DNA from: Sphingopyxis sp. OPL5
Lineage (GTDB): Bacteria; Pseudomonadota; Alphaproteobacteria; Sphingomonadales; Sphingomonadaceae
NCBI RefSeq assembly: GCF_003797775.2
Contig: NZ_CP060725.1
Span: 1,730,001 to 1,794,000, forward strand
Reading direction: 5' to 3'
DNA length: 64,000 nucleotides
This document shows, piece after piece, positions 7,204-62,476 of this stretch; position 1 is the first letter of the stretch; every line of letters starts with the position of its first letter. A model generated the notes under the pieces. The model ran no database searches and was not told the DNA's origin. It saw only the letters and a program-made list of their open reading frames with translations. The position numbers and the translations under genes are program-made.

Positions 7204-8595
7204 TCAGTAGCGCGAGTCGAAGGTGGCGGTGACTTCGGTCTTGCCGTTCGCGGGCACCGGCACCGCCCATTCGACGCGGTCGGCCGAGACGCGATTGCTC
7301 TTCAGGCTTTCGTCGGTGATGCGGACGTCGCCCCACAGCCCCGATTGCGCGAGATCGACGGTGACCGGTCCCGGCCGCGCGTTGGTGACGACATATTTCA
7401 TCTTGGTCACCCAGCGCGAATCGCTCTTGCGGGTGCGCGACACCACCGTCGACTGGATCTTGACGTCAAAGGCGTCGCCGGTGCGCAGGGTCATCGACGA
7501 TCCCATCGGGGTGTGGCCGATCTGGTTCTCGCCGATGAACTGCGGGTCGCCGCGCGCGTCGCGCATATAGACGCGGATCGTTCCCGCGGGCAGCTGGTCG
7601 CCGAGCCCGCCCTTCGCCGAGGTCGAGAATCGCAACACGCTCGCCGCGCTCACCGGCTCGGTGCTGCTGCCCAGCCAGCCGTTGACATATTCATAGGTCG
7701 AGCGCGCCGGGGCGCCCTTCACGTCGAGGAAGCTAACCTGCTTCTGCTGCGCATTGGCGATCGTCGTGCGTTCGGCGAGCGGATAGAGATAATAGTCGCC
7801 GAGCCGTTCGCGCGTGCTCGTCTCGGTCCCCGCCTCGTCGAGCACGCCGGTGAGCTGTGAAAAACCGCCGCCGCCGCCCGGGCTGCCCGCCACCAGCAGC
7901 GTGCGCGCATTGGTAAAGGTCGTGCCGGTCGAATTGGTCAGCGTCACCCACCCCTGCATGTCCATCGCGCCCTTGGCGGCGTCGAACAAGGCGACATAGT
8001 CGGCGGTCCAGCCGAGGTTTGGGGTGAGGTACGAGAGCCGCGCAGGCACTGTGCCCGCATTCTCGGCCTGCACCGTCACCGACAGCGTCGGGCGCGCGCG
8101 CAAATTGGGCGGCAGCCGGTCGAACACCGCGCGCACCGGCAGGCCGTCGTCGCGCAGCACCTCGATCCGCTCGCCGATCTGCAGCACGATGCCGCCGTTC
8201 GCGGCAAGGACCTTGGCGCGTTCGCTGCGTTCGGCACCCGTGGCGGGATTGGTGCGCACCAGCGTGATCTGCTGGCCGACCGCCTTGTCCATCAACTTGT
8301 CGGGGGTGAGCAGGTCGAAGTCGAAATTCTGCTCGACGATCGCGAGACCGCCGCCCGACAGCGTCACCGTCTCGGGCCGGATGCGCGCCGACACGTCGGG
8401 AAATTCGATGCGGTTGCGCCCGGCGGCGACTGCCAGCTGGCGGTCGTCCTGCACCAGCGACTGGCCATTGTTATAGATGGTGACCGCGACATCGCCCTGC
8501 GCGGTGGCGCCGGGGTCCTGTTGCGCCGCAGCGGGAAGCGAAAGCCATGGAGCGACGGCGGCTCCCAACAGGCAAGTCTTTGCCAAAGCGCGCAT
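7204..8595 (-). CDS. Secreted DUF4139 protein, type A (first copy)
   Basis: A 463-residue product. I chose the ATG at 8595 because it follows a GGGGGAGAG site and opens a clear signal peptide (MRALAKTCLLGAAVAPWLSL, then PAAAQQ). The mature protein starts with QGDVAVTIYNNGQSLV and carries the same domain order as the type A copy at 4047-5552. It is the first gene of the four-gene DUF4139 block, so the promoter for the block should lie between 8596 and about 8700. The role is unknown; export to the periplasm is likely. Confidence 0.8.
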   Translation of the reverse strand: MRALAKTCLLGAAVAPWLSLPAAAQQDPGATAQGDVAVTIYNNGQSLVQDDRQLAVAAGRNRIEFPDVSARIRPETVTLSGGGLAIVEQNFDFDLLTPDKLMDKAVGQQITLVRTNPATGAERSERAKVLAANGGIVLQIGERIEVLRDDGLPVRAVFDRLPPNLRARPTLSVTVQAENAGTVPARLSYLTPNLGWTADYVALFDAAKGAMDMQGWVTLTNSTGTTFTNARTLLVAGSPGGGGGFSQLTGVLDEAGTETSTRERLGDYYLYPLAERTTIANAQQKQVSFLDVKGAPARSTYEYVNGWLGSSTEPVSAASVLRFSTSAKGGLGDQLPAGTIRVYMRDARGDPQFIGENQIGHTPMGSSMTLRTGDAFDVKIQSTVVSRTRKSDSRWVTKMKYVVTNARPGPVTVDLAQSGLWGDVRITDESLKSNRVSADRVEWAVPVPANGKTEVTATFDSRY

Positions 8596-55769: not shown

Positions 55770-58241
55770 TCAGAAATTGAACTTCGCGCTCACCCCATAG
55801 GACGGGCTGCGCCCCGGAAAACGCACCGCGGTGTTGGCGTTGGTCGCCGCCGACTGCCAATAATAGGTGTCGGTGATATTCTTGCCCCACAGCGACACCT
55901 CCCACTGGCCATCCTGCTCATAGAGCGCGAGGCTGGCGTTCAATATGCCATAGCCCTTGATCTGCAGCGGCGCGAAATCCTCGATCGTGCTGCCGGTCTT
56001 CGACTGGTAGCGCCCGTTGAGGATCGCCCGCACGCCGAGCTTGTCGTTCACCGACGTGTCATAGGTGATCGTCGCCGCGCCCGAGAATTTCGGGCTGTAG
56101 GGGAAGGCGAAGCCGTCGAAATCGAACGGCGCGCCCGCGGCGTTGATCCCGACATAACCCTGCAATTCGGTCTTGAGCCAGGTGCCCGCGAGCGTCACGT
56201 TGAGCGCATCGGTCGCCTGGATGCTGACGTCGCCGTCGATCCCGTAAGCGCGCGACTTGGGGATATTGTCGAGGCGGAGCAGCGTCGTGTAGATCGGATC
56301 GGCGAAATAGACCGCGAGCTGCTTGTCGCGATAATCATAATAGAAGGCCGCGACATTGAGGTTCACCTTGCGGTCGGCGAGCGCCAGCTTGGTGCCGACT
56401 TCATAGGCGGTCAGTTCCTCCTGCTTCGCAGGGCGGTTCTGCGTCGCGATGTTCGCGGCGTTGACCGGGGTCGACCCCGATTTGTAACCGCGGCTGACCG
56501 ACGCATAGGCGAGTATGTCGTTGGTCGGCTCCCACGTCAGCGCCCCGCGCCAGGCGACATTGTCTTCCTTGAGGTTCGAGGTGACGAGGCCGAAGGTGCC
56601 GGTATCGACGTCATAGGTGTTGCACTGATTCGCCGTGATCGGCGCGGTGAAGGCGCCGTAGACCTGGAAAAAGAAGGCGCGGTTGAACAGGTTGACGTTG
56701 GGCAGCATCGACCCGTTGAGGTCGCGCGAGCAGCCCTGATATTCCTGCCGGTCCTCGGTGTAGCGCGCCCCGGTGGTCAGTTTCAGCGTGTCCGACAGCT
56801 CCCAGTCGGCGCTGGCGAACAGGCTGAAGGTCTCGGTGTCGAAATCGGCGACGTCGCGATAGGTGCGGAACGCGGTGGCGACATCGGCGGCGGTAAAACC
56901 CTGACTGTTGAACGGGGTGTTCAAGAGGCCAAGCTGGACGATCAGCGCCCGGATCGCGCCGACATTGGCATTCTGCCCCAGCAAGGTCTGGTTGGTGTCG
57001 GAAACGACATCCTTGGCATAATAGCCGCCGACGACCCATTCGGCGGGGCCGGTCGATCCCTGGAAGCGCAATTCCTGCGAAAAGCTCTCGATCTTGCCCT
57101 GCGCCCGCTGGATCAGGATCTCATAGGGCGCGCCGCTCCAGTCATAGGTCGCGTCGCGATTGACCTTGTTATAGCCGGTCAGCGAGATGAAGCTCAAATC
57201 GCTCGTCAGGTCGAACTGGATGAGGCCGCGCAAGCCCAGGAAATCGCTGTCCTCCTGCAGCGGCCCGTCGATCCCGGTGCCGCGCCCGATATTGGGGCCG
57301 CGCTGCGACAGCGGTGCCCAGTCGGCGCTGTTCGAATCCCATTTGGGGCCGTTGGCGGCGATATAGGCGGGCAGTCCCGGCGCGTTGAACAGGCTGAACA
57401 GCGTGCCGTTGGCGGGATCGGTGTTCGGGGTGAACCCCACCGCCTGCCCCGCGAGCGTGTCCGACTTGTTGATCCAGAAATTGCCGCCAAGCTCGATCTT
57501 CATCCCCTCGACCGGCTCGGCGGTCAGCGTCAGCCGGCCGCCATAGCGGTGCACCTCGCCCAGGCTCTCGTCGCGCGAGATGCTGTGCTGCCAGCCGTCC
57601 CAGCTGTCCTCGGTGCGAAAGGCGGCGCGGATCGCGATATCCTGCCCCAGCGGGATGTTGAGATGACCTTCGCTGTTGAGCGTCTTTTCGCTGCCGAGAT
57701 CGACCGCGACCCCGCCCGAGAACTCGCCGAACTTCGGCTTGGCGGTGATGAAATTGACCAGCCCGCCGGTGGTGTTGCGGCCATAGAGCGTGCCCTGCGG
57801 ACCCTTGAGCACTTCGACGCGCTCGAGGTCATAGACCGGCCCGCTGTTCATGAACGGATAGGCGAGCGCGACCTCGTCCTGATAGGTGCCGACGGTCGAG
57901 GTCGCCGACAGGTTGATCGTGTTGAAGCCGATCCCGCGCAGCGTATAGATCGGGATGCCCTGATAGCCGCGCGAGACGTTGAGGCTGGGCACCACCGCCT
58001 GCAGATCCTCGGTCGAGGTCACGCGCAGATTTTCGAGCGTATCGCCCGAAAAAGCCTGGATCGCGAGGCCGACGTCGTTGATGCTTTCGGCGCGGCGCTG
58101 CGCGGTCACGACGATCGCGCCGTCGTCGGCGGCCTCGGTCTCCGCCGCCGGCGGCGCATTTTGTGCCAGCACCGGCTGGCTTGCCATCATCGCCGCCCAT
58201 GCCACTCCGGCCAGACCCATTGCACGCACCGCACCCGCCAT
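55770..58241 (-). CDS. TonB-dependent outer-membrane receptor
   Basis: An 823-residue receptor. It has a signal peptide (to PVLAQ), a plug domain opening with IVVTAQR at 43-49 and containing VEVLKGPQGTLYGRNTTGG, then a beta-barrel ending in GVSAKFNF with terminal Phe. GGGAGAGAAG precedes the ATG. It imports a ligand across the outer membrane with TonB energy; sphingomonads often use such receptors for hydrophobic substrates. Two palindromic operator sites lie 25-56 bases upstream, shared with the divergent TetR gene. Confidence 0.95.
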   Translation of the reverse strand: MAGAVRAMGLAGVAWAAMMASQPVLAQNAPPAAETEAADDGAIVVTAQRRAESINDVGLAIQAFSGDTLENLRVTSTEDLQAVVPSLNVSRGYQGIPIYTLRGIGFNTINLSATSTVGTYQDEVALAYPFMNSGPVYDLERVEVLKGPQGTLYGRNTTGGLVNFITAKPKFGEFSGGVAVDLGSEKTLNSEGHLNIPLGQDIAIRAAFRTEDSWDGWQHSISRDESLGEVHRYGGRLTLTAEPVEGMKIELGGNFWINKSDTLAGQAVGFTPNTDPANGTLFSLFNAPGLPAYIAANGPKWDSNSADWAPLSQRGPNIGRGTGIDGPLQEDSDFLGLRGLIQFDLTSDLSFISLTGYNKVNRDATYDWSGAPYEILIQRAQGKIESFSQELRFQGSTGPAEWVVGGYYAKDVVSDTNQTLLGQNANVGAIRALIVQLGLLNTPFNSQGFTAADVATAFRTYRDVADFDTETFSLFASADWELSDTLKLTTGARYTEDRQEYQGCSRDLNGSMLPNVNLFNRAFFFQVYGAFTAPITANQCNTYDVDTGTFGLVTSNLKEDNVAWRGALTWEPTNDILAYASVSRGYKSGSTPVNAANIATQNRPAKQEELTAYEVGTKLALADRKVNLNVAAFYYDYRDKQLAVYFADPIYTTLLRLDNIPKSRAYGIDGDVSIQATDALNVTLAGTWLKTELQGYVGINAAGAPFDFDGFAFPYSPKFSGAATITYDTSVNDKLGVRAILNGRYQSKTGSTIEDFAPLQIKGYGILNASLALYEQDGQWEVSLWGKNITDTYYWQSAATNANTAVRFPGRSPSYGVSAKFNF

Positions 58242-58265: not shown

Positions 58266-58297
58266 TTATCAGCGATGATAGTTATCAATCGTGATAG
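58266..58297. promoter_or_regulatory. Two abutting TTATCA-N4-TGATAG operator sites
   Basis: TTATCAGCGATGATAG (58266-58281) and TTATCAATCGTGATAG (58282-58297) lie end to end. They are between the TonB receptor and TetR starts and should let one repressor control both, including the regulator itself. The same palindrome is at 58995 and 61461. Confidence 0.75.
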
Positions 58298-58356
58298 ATT
58301 ATGCAACCGGCAATTGCATTTTGCGGACAATGATGGTCTGTCGGCGGCAAGGAGCG

Positions 58357-59007
58357 ATGATGGCCACCCGAAGTGAAAAGGCGGAAAGCCGCACGCGCGG
58401 CTCGATCCGCGACGCCCTGCTGGACGCGGCGAGCGCGCTGATGCGCGAACAGGACAAGATCGATATCGGCATCGTCGAGATCGCGGCGCGCGCCGGGGTC
58501 AACCACGGCATGATCCGCTATTATTTCGGCGACAAGGAAGGCATGCTCGCGGCGCTGCTCGACCGCGACGTGATCCGCGCGATCCGCCAGCTCGACGCCT
58601 TGTTCCGCCTGCCCGTCACCCCGACGGCGCGGATGCGCATCCATCTCGAGGGCATTCTCGATACCTATTACCGCATCCCGTACCTCAACCGCCTGATCCA
58701 ATATATGGTCCGCGACGCCGAACCCGAGCGGGTGCGGCACATCGGCGACGAACTTCTGTCGAAGATCGCGGGCGCGCAGGCGCGGATGATCGAGGAGGGC
58801 ATCGCGGCGGGCGAGTTCAATCCCGTCGATCCCAAGCTCTTTTACTTCAACACGATCGGCGCCGCGGACGGCCTCTATTCGAATCGCCTGACGCTGCAGG
58901 TCGTGTTCAAGGGCAAGCCGCACGCCGACGATGATCTCCATGCACGCTATCGCGAACACACGGTCGAGACATTGCTCGCCGGACTCGTCAAAAATTATCA
59001 GACTTGA
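58357..59007 (+). CDS. TetR/AcrR family transcription regulator
   Basis: A product of about 216 residues from the ATG at 58357 (or 58360), behind AAGGAG. The helix-turn-helix is at about 15-60, with IVEIAARAGVNHGMIRYYFG and DKEGMLAALLD. The larger C-terminal domain would bind the ligand, probably a CoA thioester or related pathway compound. The two abutting palindromes in its promoter gap and further copies beside neighbouring genes suggest it represses the whole block. Confidence 0.93.
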   Translation: MMATRSEKAESRTRGSIRDALLDAASALMREQDKIDIGIVEIAARAGVNHGMIRYYFGDKEGMLAALLDRDVIRAIRQLDALFRLPVTPTARMRIHLEGILDTYYRIPYLNRLIQYMVRDAEPERVRHIGDELLSKIAGAQARMIEEGIAAGEFNPVDPKLFYFNTIGAADGLYSNRLTLQVVFKGKPHADDDLHARYREHTVETLLAGLVKNYQT

Positions 59008-59010
59008 TAA
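58995..59010. promoter_or_regulatory. TTATCA-N4-TGATAA operator before an acyl-CoA dehydrogenase gene
   Basis: TTATCAGACTTGATAA, a perfect six-base-arm palindrome. It overlaps the TetR stop codon and ends 28 bases before the dehydrogenase ATG. Confidence 0.75.
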
Positions 59011-59038
59011 TTAGGCGTCGCACGCGCATAGCCGGGTC

Positions 59039-60136
59039 ATGAATCTCGAACCCGACGACGACCAACGCCTGCTCCGTGACGCACTCACGCGCTTCCTGGC
59101 GCAGCAATTGCCGTTCGAAAAGCGCCGCACGATGCGCGATTCGACCGCGCAGCTCGCGCTGTGGCGCGCCGCCGACGCGGCGATCGGCATCGGCGCGGCG
59201 GCGCTGCCCGACAGCATCGGCGGCTTCGGCGGCGGGCGCGTCGCGGCGATGATCGTCGCCGAGGAACTTGGCGCCGCGCTCGCGGTCACCCCCTATATCG
59301 ACTGTCACATTCTCACCGCCGAATTGCTGCTCGCGCTCGGCGAGAGTGCGCGCGCCGCCGCCATTGCGCGCGGCGAGGCGCTGATCGTCACCGCGATCGA
59401 GGAACCCGCGACGCGCGGCGACATCGGCGCGATCGCGGCGCGGGCGACCCCCGCCGACGACGGCTGGACGCTGGCCGGGCGCAAGATCGCGGTCGCCTTC
59501 GCGGCCGAGGCCGACCATATCGTCGTGCCCGCCCGGGACGCCGAGGATGATTTGCGCCTGTACCTCGTGCCGGCCGCATCGCTTGCCGGCCGGCTCCATG
59601 CCTATTGGACGATCGACGACATGCCCGCCGCCGACCTCGATCTCGATGGACTGTGGGTCGACAGCGCCGCCGAAATCGGGCGCGAGCAGGATGGCGAAGC
59701 CGCGCTGCAGGCCGCCGTCGACGCCGCCATCGCCGCGCTCGCCGCCGAGGCGGCCGGACTCGCGCGCGTGCTGCTCGACGACACCCTGCTTTACGCCAAG
59801 CAGCGCAAGCAGTTCGGCGCGACGCTGTCGAGCTTTCAGGCACTCCAGCACCGCATGGTCGACATGCTGATGCTGCGCGAGGCGATTTCCGCCGCCGCGA
59901 TGCTCGCCGCGCTTAAGCCCGGCGACGCGCAGGCGACCGCCGCCGCCAAGGCGACGATCGGCGACGCGCTGCGCAAGATCGGGCAGGAAGCGGTCCAACT
60001 CCACGGCGCGATGGGCATGACCGAGGAACTGCGCGTCGGTCATTATTTTAAACGCGCCACCGCGATCGAGCAACGGCTGGGGACCAGCGAGCTGCATGTC
60101 GCGCGCTATTCGGCGGGGATGGCCGCAGCCTCATAA
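59039..60136 (+). CDS. Acyl-CoA dehydrogenase, short subunit type
   Basis: A 365-residue flavoprotein with the usual three-part fold: N-terminal helices, a beta domain (AARATPADDGWTLAGRKIAV), and a C-terminal helical domain (RKQFGATLSSFQALQHRMVD; LHGAMGMTEELRVGHYFKRA). It is shorter than the second dehydrogenase, and the usual Glu in the EGT position is not evident. Such short forms often pair with a longer one in steroid and terpenoid side-chain oxidation. An operator lies just before it. Confidence 0.9.
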   Translation: MNLEPDDDQRLLRDALTRFLAQQLPFEKRRTMRDSTAQLALWRAADAAIGIGAAALPDSIGGFGGGRVAAMIVAEELGAALAVTPYIDCHILTAELLLALGESARAAAIARGEALIVTAIEEPATRGDIGAIAARATPADDGWTLAGRKIAVAFAAEADHIVVPARDAEDDLRLYLVPAASLAGRLHAYWTIDDMPAADLDLDGLWVDSAAEIGREQDGEAALQAAVDAAIAALAAEAAGLARVLLDDTLLYAKQRKQFGATLSSFQALQHRMVDMLMLREAISAAAMLAALKPGDAQATAAAKATIGDALRKIGQEAVQLHGAMGMTEELRVGHYFKRATAIEQRLGTSELHVARYSAGMAAAS

Positions 60137-60140
60137 GCCT

Positions 60141-60221
60141 CGTCATTGCGAGCGCAGCGAAGCAATCGAGAGCGGTTTACGCGACTCTGGATTGCCGCGT
60201 CGCTACGCCCCTCACAATGAC
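60141..60221. repeat. Dispersed palindrome, family A, copy 3
   Basis: It begins CGTCATTGCGAGCGCAGCGA and ends CTCACAATGAC. It separates the two convergent acyl-CoA dehydrogenase genes. Confidence 0.8.
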
Positions 60222-60227
60222 AATGGG

Positions 60228-61439
60228 TCAAAGCCCCAGCACCGCCTTCGCCAATATATTCCGCTGGATTTCGTTCGACCCGGCATAGATCGACCCGGCG
60301 CGCTCGTTGAAATAGCGCAGCGGCGCCACCGCCTGCCACGCCGCACCGGTCACATGGCCGTCCCCGGGCACGACATGCGCCGGCACCGCGGCGCCCGGCA
60401 TGCCCGCGTGCGGCTGGAACGCCAGCCCCGCCGGTCCCGCCGCCTCGCAGGCGAGTTCGGTGATATGCTGCGCCAGCTCGGTCGACAGGATCTTGAGCAT
60501 CGACGCCATGACGCCGACGCTTTCGCCCTGCCCCGCCCCCGACAGCAGTTTGAGCTCGATCATCTCCAATATGTCGACCCGGATGCGCGCCCTGGCGAGC
60601 TTGTGCGCGAACACCGCATCGCCCTCCATCGTCCCCTGCGCCTGCTTCGCCAGCGCATCGACGCGCATCGCCAGCGCCGGCGCGTGCGCCGATCCGCCGC
60701 GTTCGAATTCGAGCAGATATTTGGCGACGCTCCAACCGCGATCGACTTCGCCGATGACATTCGCCCGCGCCGAGCGCGCATCGTCGAAAAACACCTCGGC
60801 CTGGATCTGCTCGCCCGAAATCATCGTCAGCGGGCGCACCGTCACCCCCGGCTGGTCCATCGGCACGAGCAGGAAGGTGATCCCCTGCTGCGGCCGCTCA
60901 TGCTTCGACGTGCGCACCAGGCAGAAGATCCAGTTCGCCTCGCTCGCATGCGTCGTCCAGATCTTCGACCCGTTGAGCACGAAATCATCGCCATCCGCCA
61001 CCGCGCTCATCTGCAGCGAGGCGAGATCGGAACCCGCCCCCGGTTCCGAATAGCCCTGACAGAAAAACACCTCGCCGGTCAGGATGCGCGGCAGGAACCA
61101 GTCCTTCTGCTCCGCCGTGCCGAACGCGGCGATGACATGCGCCACCATATGGATGCCCATCGGCGAAACCGACGGTGCCCCGGCGCGCGCGCGTTCGCGG
61201 GCGTAGAGATAAAATTGCGCCGGGGTCCAGTCGCGCCCGCCATGTTCGGGCAACCAATGCGGCGCCGCCAGCCCCTCGGCGTGCAACCGCGCCTGCCAGT
61301 CCATCGACACATGATGGTCGGGATAGACGCTCGTCGCGCCCTCGGCACCCGCGCGCAGTTCGGGGGTCAGCGCGCGCGCCAGCAGCGCGCGTATCTCGGC
61401 CGCGAAAGCCTCTTCGTCGGCGCTCCAGTTCAGGTCCAT
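60228..61439 (-). CDS. Acyl-CoA dehydrogenase, long subunit type
   Basis: A 403-residue flavoprotein. FAD- and substrate-contact segments are clear: CQGYSEPGAGSDLASLQMSA, FVLNGSKIWTTHASEANWIF, and RAGSIYAGSNEIQRNILAKA at the end. In medium-chain enzymes the last segment reads IYEGT-x-QIQR with catalytic Glu; here it is IYAGSNEIQR, so the base must come from elsewhere, perhaps a partner subunit. Its promoter gap, shared with the oxygenase gene, holds an operator. Confidence 0.92.
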   Translation of the reverse strand: MDLNWSADEEAFAAEIRALLARALTPELRAGAEGATSVYPDHHVSMDWQARLHAEGLAAPHWLPEHGGRDWTPAQFYLYARERARAGAPSVSPMGIHMVAHVIAAFGTAEQKDWFLPRILTGEVFFCQGYSEPGAGSDLASLQMSAVADGDDFVLNGSKIWTTHASEANWIFCLVRTSKHERPQQGITFLLVPMDQPGVTVRPLTMISGEQIQAEVFFDDARSARANVIGEVDRGWSVAKYLLEFERGGSAHAPALAMRVDALAKQAQGTMEGDAVFAHKLARARIRVDILEMIELKLLSGAGQGESVGVMASMLKILSTELAQHITELACEAAGPAGLAFQPHAGMPGAAVPAHVVPGDGHVTGAAWQAVAPLRYFNERAGSIYAGSNEIQRNILAKAVLGL

Positions 61440-61459
61440 CGTCTCGTCCGTTGCATATA

Positions 61460-61477
61460 GTTATCACATCTGATAAC
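61460..61477. promoter_or_regulatory. GTTATCA-N4-TGATAAC operator between divergent genes
   Basis: GTTATCACATCTGATAAC has perfect seven-base arms. It lies 20 bases upstream of the long dehydrogenase start and 39 bases upstream of the MpaB-type oxygenase start. Confidence 0.78.
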
Positions 61478-61516
61478 AACTTTTCCGACGGGGTCAATCG
61501 CGACCGGGGGATAAGC

Positions 61517-62374
61517 ATGAACCGCATGACCAATATGGCGCCCGGCATGGCGATCGATTTCACCAAACCGGCGGGCGAGGCCGCGCTGCTCGCCCCCGAT
61601 TCGCTGCAATGGCGTATCTTCAAAAACCCCGTCGCGATGGCGGTCGGCGGGGTCGCGGCGGTGCTGCTCGAATTCGCCGACGCGCGCATCCGCTCGGGGG
61701 TGTGGGACCATTCGATCTACAAGGTCGATCCGATCGGCCGTTCGCAGCGCACCGGCATGGCGGCGATGGTCGGCGTCTATGGCCCCGCCAGCGCCGCGCG
61801 CCGCGTGATCGGCGGGGTCAACCGCATGCACGCGAAGGTGTCGGGCGAAACCCCCAAGGGCGAAGCTTACACCGCGCTCGACCCCGAACTGCTGAACTGG
61901 GTCTATGCCACCGCCCAATATGGCTTCCTCACCGCCTATCACCGTTTCGTGCGCCCGCTGACCGCCGCCGAACAGGCGCGCTTCTGGGCCGACGGCCAGC
62001 CCGTCGCCGAGCTGTACGGCGTGACCTATACCCCCAGGTCCGAAGCCGAATTCCTCGCGATGATGGAAGAATTACTGCCGCGCTTCGAACCGCATCCGAT
62101 CAACAGCGAATTCCTCGACATCATCCGTTCGGGCCGCGCCGCGCCGTCGGTGCCGCGCTTCCTGCACAAGGCGCTGGCGCGCGCCGCGGTGTCGCTGCTC
62201 CCGCCCGTGGTACGCGAACGACTAGCCCTCGGCCCCGAACATGACCTCGGCACCCGCGACCGGATCATGGTCAAGGCGATGGGCAAGCTCGCCGACCGGC
62301 GCAAGGACCCGTCCTCGCCCGCATGGCAGGCCGCCTTACGCCTCGGCCTTCCGGGCGATACCGCCTGGCGGTGA
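61517..62374 (+). CDS. MpaB-family (DUF2236) oxygenase-like protein
   Basis: A 285-residue product from the ATG at 61517, after GGGGGAT. It has the family's core: PVAMAVGGVAAVLLEFADAR, THTP-like motifs replaced by KVDPIGRSQRTGMAAMVGVY, and LDPELLNWVYATAQYGFLTA with a helix rich in Tyr and His (YHRFVRPL). Members include the latex-clearing oxygenase and mycophenolic acid enzyme B, which bind haem and cut carbon-carbon bonds. Haem ligands cannot be fixed here. It belongs to the operator-linked block. Confidence 0.85.
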   Translation: MNRMTNMAPGMAIDFTKPAGEAALLAPDSLQWRIFKNPVAMAVGGVAAVLLEFADARIRSGVWDHSIYKVDPIGRSQRTGMAAMVGVYGPASAARRVIGGVNRMHAKVSGETPKGEAYTALDPELLNWVYATAQYGFLTAYHRFVRPLTAAEQARFWADGQPVAELYGVTYTPRSEAEFLAMMEELLPRFEPHPINSEFLDIIRSGRAAPSVPRFLHKALARAAVSLLPPVVRERLALGPEHDLGTRDRIMVKAMGKLADRRKDPSSPAWQAALRLGLPGDTAWR

Positions 62375-62393
62375 ACCCAATCGGATAATGGAT

Positions 62394-62476
62394 CGTCATT
62401 GCGAGCGAAGCGAAGCAATCCAGAGCGGGTTACGCACGCTCTGGATTGCCGCGTCGCTTCGCTCCTCGCAATGACG
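62394..62476. repeat. Dispersed palindrome, family A, copy 4
   Basis: CGTCATTGCGAGCGAAGCGA at one end and CTCCTCGCAATGACG at the other, with CAATCCAGAG/CTCTGGATTG in the middle. It lies between the oxygenase and epoxide hydrolase genes. Confidence 0.85.

Follow-up and report, generated by a model that had tools for sequence, protein, structure and literature searches.

A 16 bp palindrome, TTATCA-N4-TGATA(A/G), is found four times around a tetR gene in Sphingopyxis sp. OPL5, within a 64,000-nucleotide stretch (positions 1730001–1794000 of contig NZ_CP060725.1) that is termed here the window. These sites are likely the operators of the neighbouring TetR repressor, which would control a local regulon for the uptake and CoA-dependent breakdown of a hydrophobic acid. 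Probably the sites act as a single switch for a small pathway of uptake and acyl-CoA breakdown, a switch that reaches distant genes and is also present in other genera.

A preliminary description of this DNA had reported four copies of the motif, correctly placed at the positions listed in Table 1. With up to two mismatches allowed, the window displays eight strand-matches, all of which belong to these four sites, compared with an expectation of 0.76; eight matches were reached in none of 100 shuffled windows. The 4.68 Mb genome, a single contig, has no exact copy besides the four. The earlier view that chance is a poor explanation is thus upheld, and the scatter of motifs in coding regions genome-wide that had been named as evidence against the regulon was looked for, with zero further exact copies found in the genome. 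The genome-wide scan proposed at that time therefore added no exact sites, but it revealed four sites with one mismatch, two of which are judged to be regulon members and are described below. The other two were excluded. One, at 264955, lies inside a minus-strand open reading frame (ORF; L010, 2224–3282), with the next ORF some 230 bases away. The other, at 3479992, overlaps the start codon of an ORF that is of Nudix type by sequence appearance; it is also present in four relatives, probably because the site includes coding sequence.

The four sites had been said to lie at promoter positions. This holds for their placement, including the palindromes in the gap between tetR and the divergent TonB receptor gene, but operator 3 is not strictly intergenic: it covers the last codons and the stop codon of tetR, which ends at 59007. 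In loci of other genera, e.g. L020 and L021, its counterpart comes after the tetR match. The reported 28 bases between operator 3 and the dehydrogenase gene are borne out by the gene start in Table 1.

The TetR protein has an N-terminal helix-turn-helix domain (PF00440, 33.5 bits, cut-off 24) and a separate C-terminal ligand/dimer domain (PF14514, TetR_C_9; 124.4 bits, cut-off 25.3). Its nearest solved relative is PDB 2qtq/2rha (E 1.7e-50, residues 15–219). Membership in the PsrA, FadR or BetI families was rejected on scores far below the cut-offs, namely 27.6 bits against 300 for the PsrA model NF053516, 29.7 against 200 for the NCBIfam FadR model and 40 against 201.3 for BetI. The recognition helix of close orthologs reads VNH[GA]MIRY[YF]FG, with the exception of a VNHC variant in one genome (L016/L038). 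A site with at most one mismatch is found in 18 of 18 close-ortholog loci of about 3.6–4 kb each (L034–L043, L107–L114), compared with 0 of 23 loci, of similar flank size, from more distant TetR relatives with another helix. The helix of 2qtq/2rha is LNSALVKYYFGNK, and none of 20 genomic loci with that helix has the operator nearby.

Conservation of the sites was followed in the Sphingopyxis sp. OPL5 locus and 20 loci from 19 genomes, two of them (L023 and L031) from one genome. Among six of the loci with a TetR at 91–96% identity, five are from Sphingopyxis. Thirteen of the 18 close-ortholog loci above are the same DNA as 13 of these 21. Sites were picked at up to two mismatches and the profile was built from those with at most one (66 of 68), so that the 12 core positions are invariant in part because the sites were selected by a mismatch limit. 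The fair points of the profile are site position and the contrast with the flanks, where each position holds 0.8 bit or less and is thus unconserved. The gap between the TonB receptor gene and tetR has a site in 18 of 21 loci (17 at one mismatch or fewer; the misses are L025, L027 and L032). It holds a tandem pair in 12 loci, spaced by 16 or 17 bp in the relatives, and a single site with at most one mismatch in five more. The tetR/ACAD1 (acyl-CoA dehydrogenase 1) gap has a site in 19 of 21 loci, missing in L024 and L032, and the gap between ACAD2 and the PF09995 gene in 18 of 21, missing in L024, L025 and L032. In four Novosphingobium loci (L022, at 7873–7886, and likewise L028, L029 and L033) the TonB receptor/tetR gap also contains a truncated form of the palindrome, TTATC-N4-GATA[AG], that ends 4 bp ahead of the intact site. 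Perhaps this is a degenerate tandem operator.

Within the genus, sites and regulator occur together. An exact motif copy is present in 12 of 80 genus genomes, ten with clustered sites (G000, G005, G025, G029, G033, G034, G035, G041, G060 and G073) and two with single copies (G045 and G079). A TetR ortholog at 91–100% identity is found in exactly those ten. The 70 TetR-negative genus genomes have no clustered sites and hold the two stray single copies. Close orthologs of the PF09995 protein (79–100%) are confined to the same ten genomes, and 33 further genus genomes have a PF09995 relative at 61–64% and no clustered motif. By itself this co-occurrence signifies linkage, not binding, since the genes of the locus are passed on together and the ten genomes are for the most part relatives. 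At the level of the order, a TetR of at least 65% identity is found in 10 of 396 genomes, and all ten have a site with at most one mismatch beside tetR.

Promoter-like hexamers are found at a fixed spacing from the sites. Towards ACAD2, all 18 loci with the ACAD2/PF09995 operator show a TTG hexamer, usually TTGACC, separated by 15 or 16 nt from the TTATCA of the operator; in the PF09995 direction, a TTGC hexamer precedes the operator by 4 nt in 14 of the 18. The four loci without the latter are all from Novosphingobium; in these the PF09995 match is found at a distance of about 0.9 kb, with a TetR-type gene intervening in L029. The background frequency of TTG at a given position in these loci is near 0.011. 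A remote acyl-CoA synthetase gene, described below, has TTGTCA or TTGCCA upstream, preceding TTATCA by 17 nt, in 10 of 10 cases. Given the conserved TTG hexamers at fixed spacing, the operator would therefore cover the −10 region and the spacer; repression would occur by occlusion of the promoter, by analogy with other TetR proteins.

The list of regulon members in the preliminary description was incomplete. Two genes outside the cluster, each with the one-base variant TTATCA-N4-TGAGAA, are now added as predicted members. One copy of the variant, at 3611888, is 29 bases upstream of a gene for an acyl-CoA synthetase (NF004837, 590 bits, cut-off 476), and another, at 2106029, precedes a second TonB receptor gene. 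Synthetase upstream regions were compared in 20 genus genomes, the ten TetR-positive ones and 10 of the 70 TetR-negative ones. In all 9 TetR-positive genomes whose upstream region could be read, the variant is located 41–47 bases before the aligned synthetase start. In the tenth, G073, this region is cut off by a contig end; its cut synthetase copy groups with the TetR-negatives in the synthetase tree and thus may not be the same gene. Of the ten TetR-negatives, only G008 carries the variant. A genus-wide scan found the variant in 18 places in 12 genomes: 10 precede the acyl-CoA synthetase gene, seven precede the TonB receptor 2 gene, and one is inside an ORF in G066. The TonB receptor 2 site is present in 7 of 10 TetR-positive genomes, a count that includes G005, G025 and G035, which may lack an ortholog of this receptor. 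In other genera, the remote synthetase has an upstream site at one mismatch in G128, G353 and G380 and at two mismatches in G234. In four Novosphingobium loci (L022, L028, L029 and L033, the last from G229), the synthetase gene is inside the cluster after the PF09995 gene, with no site of its own.

Operators also accompany cluster genes that are displaced. Two such cases were followed. In G185 a contig distance of 2.4 Mb, or 0.9 Mb for a circular chromosome, separates tetR from the ACAD2/PF09995 pair, which is accompanied by an exact operator and a second site with one mismatch. In G380 a TonB receptor/PF09995 pair is on another contig than tetR, and an exact operator is found in between. These displaced operators and the fixed spacing to promoter-like hexamers further back the reading of the sites as a TetR regulon. 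The designation of the neighbouring TetR as the predicted binder is supported by co-occurrence, cross-genus conservation and the recognition helix. Site positions, conservation, co-occurrence, fixed geometry and operators beside displaced genes are all observed directly.

Another variant, TTGTCA-N4-TGATAA, precedes a gene for PhyH (phytanoyl-CoA dioxygenase) in two Novosphingobium loci (L177, 4280–4295; L029, 16175–16190). In Novosphingobium G229 a one-mismatch site lies upstream of a likely ATG of a PhyH gene, and L029 is arranged alike. The PhyH gene is a possible further regulon member.

From the comparisons we infer TetR binding, repression and the nature of the ligand, and the following mechanism is proposed. 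The 16 bp palindrome TTATCA-N4-TGATAA would serve as the operator of the TetR encoded at 58360–59007, a TetR dimer on each site covering the promoter core. TetR would silence its own gene and that of the TonB receptor via the two abutting sites, ACAD1 via one site, and the divergent ACAD2/MPAB_Lcp_cat oxygenase pair via one site common to both promoters. In trans, via TTATCA-N4-TGAGAA, it may act on two more genes, that of the remote long-chain-type acyl-CoA synthetase and, in the majority of these species, that of the second TonB receptor. The inducer is predicted to be the substrate, a hydrophobic acid or its CoA ester, which would enter the cell and bind the C-terminal domain, whereupon TetR would release the DNA. 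Uptake, CoA activation, oxygenation and beta-oxidation steps would then be induced together.

Several observations weigh against this model. L032, whose TetR has 48% identity and the same recognition helix, is without a site, and L024 has a single site at two mismatches. Among the ten TetR-positive genus genomes, G033 has no site of one mismatch or fewer in the TonB receptor/tetR gap, and nine fall in one part of the synthetase tree, so that the 10 of 10 match does not represent ten independent events. A sigma-70 consensus scan gave no promoter match. In four of eight TetR-positive genomes outside the genus (G441, G235, G229 and G185), no site of up to two mismatches precedes any synthetase copy. 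G008 keeps its synthetase site (C25:338903–338918; L095, 3904) and has no TetR match at E 1e-30; it is also without a close PF09995 ortholog. Because this genome sits beside TetR-positive genomes in the synthetase tree, the simplest interpretation is that tetR was lost and the site is a relic, which is likely, but not proved. Lastly, the exact symmetric motif occurs in 73 of the 396 order genomes, 63 of which have no TetR of at least 65% identity. Of these 63 (among 386 other genomes), 46 are in other families and 17 in the same family as Sphingopyxis; 16 of the 17 have a single copy, and G149 has four exact copies and no close TetR ortholog. Since 63 of 386 genomes without a close TetR also hold exact copies, the motif by itself is no proof of a regulon. 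It is the cluster and the gene positions, not the motif alone, that matter as evidence.

Those same copies in order genomes without this TetR are what favours chance, or a repeat element located near promoters by coincidence. This can hardly be the explanation and was rejected, in view of the shuffle expectation, the confinement of the genome's four exact copies to one locus and the cross-genus conservation amid unconserved flanks. An iron-responsive system must also be considered. TonB receptors are common targets of Fur, and Fur boxes are AT-rich, with GATAAT-type repeats; TonB receptors make up two of the predicted regulon targets, and where the tandem operators meet the sequence reads TGATAGTTATCA, a GATA-NN-TATC element. 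That the sites are Fur boxes is nevertheless very improbable. Fur-family genes are present in 77 of the 80 genus genomes (70 of 70 high-quality ones) and the clustered motif in just the ten with TetR; since the sites are not present wherever Fur is, a Fur regulon was rejected. In addition, the half-sites of the single sites are in the opposite order to those of a Fur box, and dehydrogenase, ligase and oxygenase genes are untypical as iron genes.

It is unlikely that another regulator binds the sites and that tetR is merely a target. One candidate is the second TetR-type (TetR_N) gene that lies between ACAD2 and the PF09995 gene in the Novosphingobium cluster L029 (11085–11834), and the synthetase site kept by G008 without TetR also agrees with a different binder. 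However, ACAD2 and the PF09995 gene adjoin in the window, with no second regulator between them. The site cluster tracks this tetR in the genus, 10 of 10 versus 0 of 70, and the motif tracks the helix VNH[GA]MIRY[YF]FG and not other helices. Decidedly unlikely, too, is the proposal that TetR binds but partly acts as an activator, or that the TGAGAA variants are non-functional leftovers and the real regulon is limited to the four-site cluster. The variants do break the symmetry at one conserved position, and the TonB receptor 2 site is absent from some TetR-positive genomes. Yet 17 of the 18 variant copies precede just two genes, with matching roles, the hexamer 17 nt before the variant is constant in the synthetase promoters, and in five Novosphingobium loci the synthetase is itself a cluster member.

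The gene order in the cluster is TonB receptor (−), tetR (+), ACAD1 (+), ACAD2 (−), PF09995 (+), alpha/beta hydrolase (+) and acyl-CoA synthetase (−); coordinates of the principal features are in Table 1. For tetR, ATG 58333 was used as the start in the searches, and AAGGAG at 58349–58354 favours ATG 58357 or 58360. TonB receptors (import), synthetases (CoA activation), the dehydrogenases and the MPAB_Lcp_cat protein together suggest the breakdown of an unusual hydrophobic acid.

Table 1. Operators, predicted promoter elements and genes of the tetR cluster; positions are those of the window
Feature	Position	Strand	Basis and remarks
TonB-dependent receptor gene	55770..58241	-	Pfam PF00593 + PF07715; divergent from tetR; two operators in upstream gap; predicted target
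Operator 1, TTATCAGCGATGATAG	58266..58281	.	Motif scan; TonB receptor/tetR gap
Operator 2, TTATCAATCGTGATAG	58282..58297	.	Motif scan; abuts operator 1, 16 bp spacing
tetR	58360..59007	+	Pfam TetR_N + TetR_C_9 (PF14514); sequence; nearest PDB relative 2qtq/2rha
Operator 3, TTATCAGACTTGATAA	58995..59010	.	Symmetric copy; overlaps tetR stop; 28 bases before ACAD1 start (59039)
Acyl-CoA dehydrogenase 1 (ACAD1)	59039..60136	+	Pimeloyl-CoA dehydrogenase small-subunit-like, below cut-off
Acyl-CoA dehydrogenase 2 (ACAD2)	60228..61439	-	Pimeloyl-CoA dehydrogenase large-subunit-like, below cut-off
Predicted -35 hexamer TTGCAT, PF09995 promoter	61451..61456	+	4 nt before operator 4
Operator 4, TTATCACATCTGATAA	61461..61476	.	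Between divergent ACAD2 and PF09995 genes
Predicted -35 hexamer TTGACC, ACAD2 promoter	61492..61497	-	15 nt from operator 4
MPAB_Lcp_cat (PF09995) oxygenase-like gene	61517..62374	+	Pfam

Two other features of the region were observed. A repeat of about 80 nt with a palindromic look (TCATTGCGAGCGNAGCGAAGCAATC...) is found downstream of ACAD1 (60140–60221) and in the PF09995/hydrolase gap (62393–62475). The window has five copies of the 25-nt end of this repeat, the other three being at 2235, 45376 and 53168. Adjoining the acyl-CoA synthetase gene, and mostly past the window end, is a very long repetitive ORF of 1618 amino acids (L009, 13114–17970), which by appearance only is labelled a trimeric autotransporter (YadA-like).

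TetR-controlled catabolic clusters are already known. EdcR of Caenibius tardaugens, the closest worked example among the systems compared, is also a sphingomonad TetR-family repressor, with a palindromic operator that overlaps the −10 boxes of a catabolic cluster and weaker operator copies at its own promoter and at the transport-type edcT promoter (PMC8700777). It differs in its C-terminal domain (PF16859, compared with PF14514 here), in its operator, TnnCnnTACnAnTnGTAnnGnnA, compared with TTATCA-N4-TGATAA, and in cluster genes (PMC8700777). The TetR protein EGO55_16300 belongs to the bsd I cluster of the same species, which functions in bile-salt side-chain breakdown; like the tetR described here, its gene adjoins a transport-related gene, paired acyl-CoA dehydrogenase subunits and a CoA ligase (PMC12882949). 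Its proposed palindromes, ATAGGGCCATTG and GCATGCGGGATGC, are unrelated to the present operator, and the cluster differs in gene content (MaoC, amidohydrolase) (PMC12882949). The PsrA, FadP and LiuQ regulons of Proteobacteria are similar in that TetR-family regulators of fatty-acid or branched-chain degradation were approached via comparative genomics (PMC5343134); the present TetR is set apart from PsrA by its model score. 2qtq/2rha, the TetR_C_9-type protein that is nearest in structure databases, differs in its recognition helix. Among the literature matches listed, mostly non-subscription papers and without coverage of the RegPrecise tables, there is no description of this operator or regulon.

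A more specific role can be considered, possible but rather doubtful: the regulon may be a sensor circuit that specifically serves a sphingomonad pathway for an isoprenoid or polycyclic acid. The MPAB_Lcp-type oxygenase would cleave the chain, a heterodimeric pimeloyl-CoA- or steroid-type dehydrogenase would start beta-oxidation, PhyH enzymes would join in Novosphingobium under the variant site, and TetR would sense the CoA ester. If so, the operator would provide a handle for scattered pathway genes, because operators accompany genes that leave the cluster.

The comparative support for the predicted TetR regulon is unusually clean. It pairs a TetR subfamily, TetR_C_9 with the helix VNH[GA]MIRY[YF]FG, with a defined operator through cross-genus conservation, and suggests a role shared by two TonB receptors, the paired dehydrogenases, a PF09995 protein and an acyl-CoA synthetase that would otherwise be unplaced. 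The operator may serve as a search key for missing pathway genes, and the regulator could act as a sensor once its ligand is known.

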